Of a stretch of 64,000 bases of DNA, positions 45,645 to 47,464 are shown piece after piece. Under the pieces are notes generated by a model. It was not told the origin of the DNA. It made no database searches and saw nothing but the letters and a program-made list of their open reading frames with translations. The position numbers and the translations under genes were made by a program. Position 1 is the first letter of the stretch; each line of letters starts with the position of its first letter. The stretch comes from Halorubrum vacuolatum (GTDB lineage Archaea > Halobacteriota > Halobacteria > Halobacteriales > Haloferacaceae), in the NCBI RefSeq assembly GCF_900188065.1, contig NZ_FZNQ01000001.1:124001-188000 (forward strand), written 5' to 3'.

Positions 45645-45733
45645 CGCAACCGTACCGACACACGACGAGGAAATAAGTGTTGGGTGTCCGGCTTGCGCTT
45701 GCTTCTCTGGACTACCGAGATCAAGGAGAGAGT

Positions 45734-45752
45734 CCCGCCCTTTAGCGCGGGC
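45734..45752 (+). repeat. left-end hairpin of the TnpB element
   Basis: CCCGC (45734-45738) and GCGGG (45747-45751) pair around a loop containing CTTTAG. The sequence resembles the right-end hairpin in its G/C stem and TTTA loop, as expected for subterminal hairpins of IS200/IS605 elements. Confidence 0.5.
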
Positions 45753-45791
45753 GTGAATCCGACACTCCACGTCACAAACTACGGTCGACGG

Positions 45792-45929
45792 TTACTCCGG
45801 GGTATCCTCTCTGACTTTCTTCTCTCCTTCGAGGAGTAAGCCCTTCCACGTCAATCCACGGTGCTTCTTCAGTTTTTTCAGTCGTTCGTACTGTTCATCA
45901 TCGTCAAATTCGATCCGAATTGCGACCAT
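45792..45929 (-). CDS. 45-residue ribbon-helix-helix-like protein inside the TnpB element
   Basis: The ATG at 45929 opens a 45-codon frame ending with TAA at 45792. The peptide MVAIRIEFDDDEQYERLKKL, continuing KKHRGLTWKGLLLEGEKKV, has a beta strand with alternating residues and two helices joined at RGLTW. This is the fold pattern of ribbon-helix-helix DNA-binding proteins. It is divergent from tnpB, where tnpA would sit in a complete element, and shares a short AT-rich promoter with it. I recall similar small frames next to haloarchaeal TnpB genes. It may repress tnpB. It is too short for most gene finders and is easily missed. Confidence 0.65.
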   Translation of the reverse strand: MVAIRIEFDDDEQYERLKKLKKHRGLTWKGLLLEGEKKVREDTPE

Positions 45930-45982
45930 ATAATATCACACAAACAGCATATTTATGTGTGTTACGGTACAATACGTAGTTG
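45930..45982. promoter_or_regulatory. divergent promoter/operator between the RHH-like gene and tnpB
   Basis: This 53-bp AT-rich gap contains CACACAAA and TTTATGTGTG halves of an imperfect inverted repeat (about 45938-45962), with CATATTTATG in the centre serving as a TATA-like element for tnpB, about 27 nt before its ATG. ATATTATATG on the minus strand could serve the small gene. Placement of the palindrome over both start sites fits a ribbon-helix-helix operator. Confidence 0.45.
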
Positions 45983-47257
45983 ATGAAGCGGGCCAACACG
46001 TTCGACGTGATTCCGCAGTCCTCAGAGGACGAGGAGTTGCTTCGACGCCTGTTGGACGCTTCTGCCGCTCTCTGGAACGAAATCAACTACGAGCGCCGCG
46101 AACACTACGAAGACCCAGACCAAGACGTATGGGAGATCAGCGAGTATCGCGGTCGCTATGGCGGAACACTCGGTGCATCCACGGTTCAGCAAATCGAACG
46201 CAAGAACCGGGAAGCGTGGAGGTCGTTCTTTAGCCTCAAAAAGAAGGGAGAAGCCAACGGCAAACCCGGATTCTGGGGGAACGCAGAGGAAGGGCGAGAA
46301 CTCCGCACGTACATCCGCAACACGTCGTACTCTGTTAAGTGGGGCAAATACTCACGCCTCGAAATTCTCGTTGGTCAAGACCTGAAAGACGAGTACGGGT
46401 TGGGACACCGCGAACGGCTCCGGCTCGAAGTCTGGGGCGAACCTAACTGGAAAGAGTACGACAAGCAGGGACGGTTAGAGTTGTGCTGGGACGAGCAAGC
46501 ACGATCATTCAGGGCCTTTCAGCCAGTCACAATCGACACTTCTCGGCTGGCACACCCACTGGCTTCGGAAGAAGCCGCTCTGGACCTCGGTGCAAACAAT
46601 CTCGTCGCTTGCACAACCATAACCGGCCAGCAATACCTGTACGAAGGACGCGATATGTTCGAGCGATTCCGCGAAACGACGCGGGAGATCGCCCGGTTGC
46701 AGTCGCTCTTGGAGGACGGTCGGTACAGCAGCCACCGGATACGTTCACTATACCGACGCCGGACGCGCCGACGCGACCACGCCCAAGACGCGCTCGCCCG
46801 CGACCTCATCGAACGGTTGCACAGCGAGGGCATTTCTACGGTGTACGTGGGGGCGTTAACGGACGTACTCGACACGCACTGGTCGGTCGAATCGAACGCC
46901 AAAACGCACAACTTCTGGGCGTTCCGGCAGTTCATCGATCGACTCGCGTGTACCGCCGAGGAGTACGGAATCTCGGTAGAGGTTCGGTCGGAAGCGTGGA
47001 CAAGCCAAGAGTGCCCGCAGTGTGGGTCCACGGAGCGAACAACGCGCCACCGCGACACGCTGACGTGTCCGTGTGGTTTCGAGGGACACGCGGATCTTAC
47101 GGCATCCGAAACGTTCCTGAGACGGCAGACAGACGTAGCACGGTCGATGGCACGGCCTGTGCGCCTCAAGTGGAACGACCACGAGTGGTCAGAGTCACCA
47201 CGCTCTTGTTCCAACGAGGAGCGCACGAACCCGCAAGTTGCCTCCGTGGGCCGGTAA
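45983..47257 (+). CDS. tnpB: IS1341-type TnpB (RNA-guided nuclease family) with altered RuvC-II
   Basis: A 424-residue protein from the ATG at 45983. The N-terminal helical part is followed by a RuvC-like nuclease. RuvC-I is [20 protein letters not shown] with Asp201. RuvC-III is [20 protein letters not shown] with Asp371. Between them is a zinc finger, [18 protein letters not shown] then LTCPCGFEG. At the RuvC-II strand ([20 protein letters not shown]), where ISDra2 TnpB has its catalytic Glu, there is Gly290. A Glu at 337 in [17 protein letters not shown] lies 47 residues downstream and may supply the missing acid; rearranged RuvC-II glutamates have been reported in TnpB surveys. If it does not, the nuclease would be inactive and the protein could act as an RNA-guided binder. 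The gene is full-length and not frameshifted. Confidence 0.9.
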
Positions 47258-47280
47258 GCGATACCCCCAGCGCGAGGAAA

Positions 47281-47300
47281 CCCTGGCGTTTACGCCGGGG
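47281..47300 (+). repeat. right-end hairpin of the TnpB element
   Basis: CCCTGGCG (47281-47288) pairs with CGCCGGGG (47293-47300), one G-T pair included, around loop TTTA. It lies 23 bp after the tnpB stop, where the right end and the conserved part of the guide RNA should be. The next bases, AGGATGTCATC, may contain the right cleavage site. Confidence 0.65.
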
Positions 47301-47464
47301 AGGATGTCATCTCAGGCGTCCCTGTGCTTGAAGCGAGTATCTATTTGCACATCGAAAATCGCAGACAGCAGGCCAGCAGCACTGATAGTTGACCGACGTG
47401 TCTTCCGGCAATCGACCCATACTATATCAATCCATGTGACGACAGGAACACAACGGGTAACCGA

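Follow-up and report, generated by a model that had tools for sequence, protein, structure and literature searches.

A 45-amino-acid protein with a predicted ribbon-helix-helix fold is encoded divergently to tnpB in tnpA-less haloarchaeal elements and is a candidate repressor

In a stretch of 64,000 nucleotides of the Halorubrum vacuolatum genome (contig NZ_FZNQ01000001.1, positions 124,001 to 188,000 of the forward strand), which is called the window in the following, an IS200/IS605-type mobile element of about 1.6 kb was found that contains tnpB and a small gene in divergent orientation. The small gene (45792–45929, minus strand) has 45 codons, starts with ATG and encodes a protein of 45 amino acids, which includes the core motif G-x-T-W-[KR]-G. 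The tnpB gene (45983–47257, plus strand) starts with an ATG and encodes 424 amino acids, or 425 if an alternative in-frame TTG at position 45980 is the start. The two starts are separated by 53 bp, and sequence comparison pointed to this intergenic region (45930–45982) as a putative divergent promoter and operator. An earlier note on this DNA had described a 45-codon gene and a 53-bp gap, and the coordinates of both reading frames agree with that description. The small protein is probably an element-encoded repressor with a ribbon-helix-helix (RHH) fold, which acts on its own gene and on tnpB.

The element extends on the plus strand from approximately 45712 to 47310 and consists of a subterminal hairpin, the small gene, the divergent promoter, tnpB, and a right-end hairpin followed by GGAGGATGTCA. 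The imperfect hairpin at the left end (CCCGCCCTTTAGCGCGGGCG, 45734–45753) was recognized from its sequence and has an equivalent position in the homologous elements L202 and L204. At the right end (47281–47310, plus strand) the hairpin CCCTGGCGTTTACGCCGGGG is followed by GAGGATGTCAT, and this segment is expected to be the 3′ part of the guide-RNA scaffold. The ends were fixed with identical copies of homologues, which together with the hairpins near both ends and the lack of inverted terminal repeats is the ground for the assignment to the IS200/IS605 type. One genome contains two copies (L202 and L203) that are 100% identical over 1607 bp, another genome contains two copies (L204 and L205) that are 100% identical over 1606 bp, and in both cases the flanks are unrelated. 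Elements that carry the small gene but lack tnpA have therefore moved recently. The alignment of the window with L202 spans 45721–47310, and the left end was placed at about 45712. No Y1 transposase TnpA is encoded within 45712–47310, and thus the element is a tnpA-less derivative and not a complete IS605. Like the IS200/IS605 elements of the IS1341 type it has tnpB, subterminal hairpins and a right end that is common to tnpA-bearing relatives, one of which (L113) resides in the same genome, but a divergent, regulator-like small gene is present instead of tnpA. A TnpA acting in trans may be the source of mobility. It had been suggested that the small gene occupies the place of tnpA inside the element ends; this is true for its position and for the ends, but in sister elements tnpA and tnpB have the same orientation. 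The available passages of a study on Haloquadratum report that most tnpB genes of Natronomonas are unlinked to tnpA and suggest a stringent copy-number control; they name no small divergent protein (PMC3119063).

The small gene is real and under strong purifying selection. In the clade of the window the dN/dS ratio was 0.042 (38 distinct loci, 703 pairs, which are not independent of one another), while the two other frames of the same strand had pN/pS values of 1.69 and 2.79, and these results ruled out a chance open reading frame (ORF). In a search with the single sequence, 167 of the 391 class genomes, from 60 of 86 genera, had a match (E ≤ 0.01), and thus the peptide is conserved far beyond this locus, the point on which the earlier note had made its proposal depend. 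With a profile built from 29 members, 76 of 194 class genomes matched (E ≤ 1e-6), and the core TWxG was invariant in the family. In a sample of 392 genomes of the phylum 39 matched (E ≤ 0.001), of which 38 belonged to the same order or were closer; the one weak match outside the order was in genome G424 (E 5.5e-4). Among 50,697 phage records none matched, and viral contigs contained one relative. The gene had been thought to be usually unannotated, which does not hold for plasmids: among 26 plasmid records, 18 annotate it as "hypothetical protein", 7 annotate nothing at this place, and one record lacks any annotation. Two longer relatives (MTERETTNVNIELPQEDFEFLKEYKDEMGLTWEGLL...; L118 and L119) are present in genome G129, which has 43 TnpB matches.

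The structure of the small protein was predicted with AlphaFold2. The model had a predicted local distance difference test score (pLDDT) of 91.7 and comprised an extended N-terminus and helices at residues 11–24 and 28–42; the N-terminal strand is unpaired, because the model is a monomer. In a Foldseek comparison with the PDB, 12 of 15 rows were RHH proteins, with CopG at the top (TM-score 0.74), and the VIA Z values were 5.7 for CopG and 5.3–5.5 for PutA and Arc. Judged from the model, the fold is very likely RHH, in agreement with the RHH-like nature proposed before. Profile searches added weak Pfam matches to ParD for 2 of the 29 members (best E 0.06) and one weak Arc-like match in PHROGs, and NCBIfam gave nothing sensible. 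The protein thus resembles the CopG and Arc repressors in its length of 45 amino acids, in the extended N-terminus followed by two helices at RHH spacing, in its best PDB matches and in the repeats in its own promoter (see below). It differs from them in the lack of a significant sequence match to RHH families, in its TWKG core and in its partner, which is the gene of a transposon's RNA-guided nuclease.

The association with tnpB was quantified by a contig scan that began from the small protein alone. In 74 of 80 loci the N-terminal end of a divergent tnpB was at most 158 bp away, mostly 50–70 bp; three of the remaining six were cut by contig ends, and three (L238, L245 and L279) showed no tnpB. 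The match at L279 covers only residues 21–45 of the small protein. In a second set of loci a divergent TnpB frame was present in 67 of 70. The partner TnpBs belong to two lineages, one of them window-like and the other about 25–30% identical over the aligned parts, and the intergenic gaps are similar. In the reverse direction, 110 TnpB loci among the matches listed were compared with about 100, or a smaller relevant subset, of the RHH matches listed and with about 58 matches of a second family of small proteins (see below), so that all counts of absence are upper bounds. Among these matches, 32 of the 35 TnpBs with at least 79% identity to that of the window had the small gene, 2 had the second small gene and at most 1 had neither, namely L102, which has a partial small-protein match. 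Of the 75 with 67–73% identity, again among the matches listed, 7 had the small gene, 18 the second small gene and at most 50 neither. Inspection of 13 of these 75, chosen for lacking the small gene (L104–L116), revealed tnpA directly upstream on the tnpB strand in 7, the second small gene in 5 and nothing in 1. In the genome of the window only 1 of 20 TnpB matches is accompanied by the small gene, which is thus a feature of particular TnpB clades rather than of all haloarchaeal TnpBs. The idea of a conserved, TnpB-associated pair is therefore borne out by its wide occurrence and divergent arrangement, but has to be restricted to these clades.

The intergenic region of the window contains an inverted repeat, which had been noticed before to lie over the TATA region. 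Its arms TATCACACA (45934–45942) and TGTGTGTTA (45956–45964), both given for the plus strand and proposed to be half-sites, form 8 of 9 pairs, are separated by 13 nucleotides and flank the AT-rich core TATTTAT (45950–45956). This core is about 24–30 bp away from both start codons, which is the spacing expected for leaderless haloarchaeal genes, and it would thus serve as the TATA element. An alignment of 37 distinct intergenic sequences of the window clade (L014 was left out due to an indel; loci L001–L030 and L071–L100 overlap, and identical intergenic sequences were counted once) revealed that positions 45935, 45937–45938, 45940, 45949, 45954–45959 and 45962 are invariant in all 37. Two motifs, the cores of the repeat arms, are kept with a single exception each: CACA at 45937–45940 (a T at 45939 in one sequence) and TTATGTG at 45953–45959 (an A at 45953 in one sequence). 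Variable positions are 45946–45948, 45952, 45964–45965 and 45973.

In the own genome the exact operator pattern was found once, at this promoter. A regulation of host genes was rejected, as the pattern lacks a second site in this genome, in which the exact pattern only was searched. The same result bears on another possible function, namely that the small protein has replaced tnpA and aids transposition together with a trans-acting TnpA or host factors, e.g., by DNA bending. Its location in the place of tnpA of sister elements, the recent movement of tnpA-less copies and the right ends shared with tnpA-bearing relatives, including L113 in the same genome, would fit such a role. However, the conserved repeats are located in the promoter, and the single occurrence of the pattern means that it is absent from the element ends, so that an accessory function appears quite unlikely.

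Across the family, repeats were analyzed in the 46 nt that directly precede the small gene, using one representative of each of 21 clusters (75% identity); L063, L100, L118, L119 and L120 were left out, because their tnpB was unseen or their family membership was doubtful. Direct repeats at a lag of 11 were strongly enriched (z 7.9, reached in 0 of 400 dinucleotide shuffles), and three other random draws of representatives gave z values of 5.8–7.9, while all other lags from 5 to 24 stayed at or below 2.9 in all four draws. The coding controls, tnpB and the RHH gene, had lag-11 values of 1.2 and -0.9 and peaked instead at lags 12 and 18, which are multiples of three. Upstream of 36 tnpB genes that lack the RHH gene the lag-11 signal was 0.0. 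Cooperative RHH repressors such as Arc bind half-sites that are one helical turn apart.

Operator and small protein change together. At three loci (L035, L038 and L086) the TnpB is 88–92% identical to that of the window, but the small proteins are only 51–56% and the operator regions 44–53% identical, with a different near-symmetric sequence, which is CATTGA...TCAATG in L035 and CATTGG...CAATG in L038. Two further loci (L190 and L191, TnpB 87–88%) have yet another small protein and the repeat GTCTATGG-N4-CCATAGAC. For 26 loci with TnpBs of more than 75% identity, the operator distance tracked the RHH distance when TnpB distance was taken into account (partial r 0.74, 0 of 1000 permutations), but not the TnpB distance when RHH distance was taken into account (partial r -0.09). 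The tnpB-proximal stretch had no such link (0.07). The periodic repeats and this co-change strengthen the operator idea of the earlier note.

The constant proximity to tnpB would also be expected if the small protein acted directly on the complex of TnpB and guide RNA, as an inhibitor or assembly factor similar to an antitoxin, and if the repeats served autoregulation only. RHH antitoxins indeed both bind DNA and neutralize their partner. However, only about 3 residues follow the second helix, leaving little room for a neutralizing tail. In addition, one family of small proteins is paired with TnpB lineages that are only about 25–30% identical, and different small proteins are paired with near-identical TnpBs, so that an interface tailored to one partner is not expected; a direct action on the complex is thus regarded as unlikely. 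In type II toxin-antitoxin modules, antitoxin and toxin are encoded in one operon. The arrangement described here is similar to modules with RHH antitoxins in that a predicted small DNA-binding protein is encoded next to a potentially harmful enzyme; it differs in the divergent orientation of the genes and the near absence of a C-terminal tail.

A second, divergently encoded small protein (MRPxIDIS..., about 43–47 amino acids) was found at the equivalent place next to sister tnpB genes, in 61 of 194 class genomes. A homology of the two families was rejected, because profile comparison gave a probability of 0.6%. The second family has weak Pfam matches to TraM (E 0.0076) and MatP (0.058), and its model, based on 7 sequences, was of moderate quality (pLDDT 73.2), with helices after an extended start. 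In 14 dissimilar intergenic regions of this family, direct repeats were enriched at lags of 8 (z 6.5) and 16 (z 5.3). Two small proteins without detectable kinship thus each have their own repeat period at the tnpB promoter, which suggests that the control of tnpB is the point of both, and this duality is the strongest general argument for tnpB control. The loci of this family are L101, L103, L110–L112, L115, L116 and L295–L314. At L110, L116 and probably L299 the second small gene is separated from tnpB by an extra divergent ORF of at most 75 amino acids, which has two CxxC pairs (CYICGQ..., CPACED...) and in this respect resembles a zinc-binding protein.

Several results weigh against a repressor of tnpB. 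The inverted repeat of the window alone had a p value of 0.09 (200 mononucleotide shuffles), and the window copy lacks the 11-bp direct repeat (score 2). Lag 11 was the best or joint-best in only 10 of 21 clusters; the clade of the window is not one of them and has the inverted repeat instead. Inverted repeats were not enriched across the clusters (z 0.8); they were rejected as a general operator and hold for the clade of the window only. Of the 26 loci in the co-change analysis only 3 carry an RHH protein of a non-window type, and recombination of one contiguous block could partly explain the co-change. With regard to the fold, the Foldseek E-values were 1.8 or worse, which we attribute to the length of 45 residues; the Pfam family RHH_1 matched weakly in 3 of 29 members (E ≤ 1, best E 0.036), the window's own small protein had no Pfam match, and a sequence search of the PDB gave no match. 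Furthermore, the small gene persists beside a broken tnpB at several loci, e.g., L026 and L048, where no repressor role is needed. The latter would be readily understood if the small protein were a conserved passenger without any role in tnpB control and if the promoter features merely reflected a shared archaeal TATA region, but this is very improbable in view of the strong purifying selection, the absence of the 11-bp periodicity upstream of RHH-less tnpB genes and the second, unrelated family with its own 8-bp periodicity at the equivalent place.

For the proposed repressor we infer DNA binding, repression, autoregulation and a purpose as follows. After insertion the divergent promoter would fire in both directions, and the small protein would build up. 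Its dimers could then bind to the half-sites in the 53-bp promoter and block the TATA region common to both genes. The small gene and tnpB would thereby be repressed together to a low level, and an established element would make little of the RNA-guided nuclease. It is also conceivable, though speculative, that loss or dilution of the protein, e.g., upon entry into a new cell, would allow tnpB expression and help the element to establish itself and to hold its site.

The window TnpB has the expected profile matches over its full length (NF040570 with 147 bits at a cut-off of 100, PF01385 and PF07282). D201, D371 and Glu337 are invariant in all 70 clade-A TnpBs, and the canonical RuvC-II glutamate (position 290) is a glycine in all 70. 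The canonical glutamate is present in the clade-B TnpBs (n = 30). Six residues separate Glu337 from the first cysteine of the zinc finger. TldR proteins are nuclease-dead and have lost RuvC catalytic residues. A TldR-like dead TnpB was considered and rejected, because D201, D371 and Glu337 are invariant in spite of the missing canonical glutamate. The place of Glu337 fits an alternative, relocated glutamate (Ealt) that is described for TnpBs and Fanzors in the accessible part of PMC10711439. Therefore, by the criterion of its RuvC residues, the window TnpB is probably not catalytically dead. As far as the accessible parts of the TldR literature go, both systems link gene regulation to a protein derived from TnpB, but here D201, D371 and the alternative Glu337 are kept and the proposed regulator is a separate small protein.

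More tentatively, tnpA-less haloarchaeal TnpB elements might carry interchangeable repressor-operator cassettes, with at least two unrelated families and many specificities within one, that behave like phage immunity groups. If so, a resident element would silence an incoming TnpB with the same operator, but not one with another, and cassettes would turn over rapidly between near-identical TnpBs.

Cas12 is considered to descend from TnpB nucleases, and to our knowledge the restraint of TnpB by its elements is mostly an open question. If the proposed role is correct, a dedicated repressor that replaces the transposase would be a direct, testable answer for one large archaeal group and would bear on the persistence of tnpB elements without tnpA. 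Haloarchaeal genetics would also gain compact pairs of promoter and repressor. In the accessible portions of the literature, including PMC3119063, PMC12558985, PMC8303175 and PMC10711439, a small RHH protein encoded divergently to tnpB was not found to be described. Newly added here are the class-wide counts, the clade limits, the 11-bp operator period, the joint variation of small protein and operator, and another family with an equivalent role.

Two minor observations were made. The right end of the element (47183–47321) has a sub-threshold match to the Rfam family HgcC (17.5 bits, gathering threshold 50, E 0.39), and beyond this match no known RNA was assigned to the element; the shared hairpin and the motif GAGGA.GTCA hint that HgcC RNAs might be TnpB guide-RNA scaffolds. 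On plasmid NZ_CP084319.1 (233589–234921, H28) a window-like tnpB is present without the small-gene part; the match begins at query base 247 with 87.6% identity of the DNA, and this tnpB adjoins a gene that is annotated as TFIIB family.
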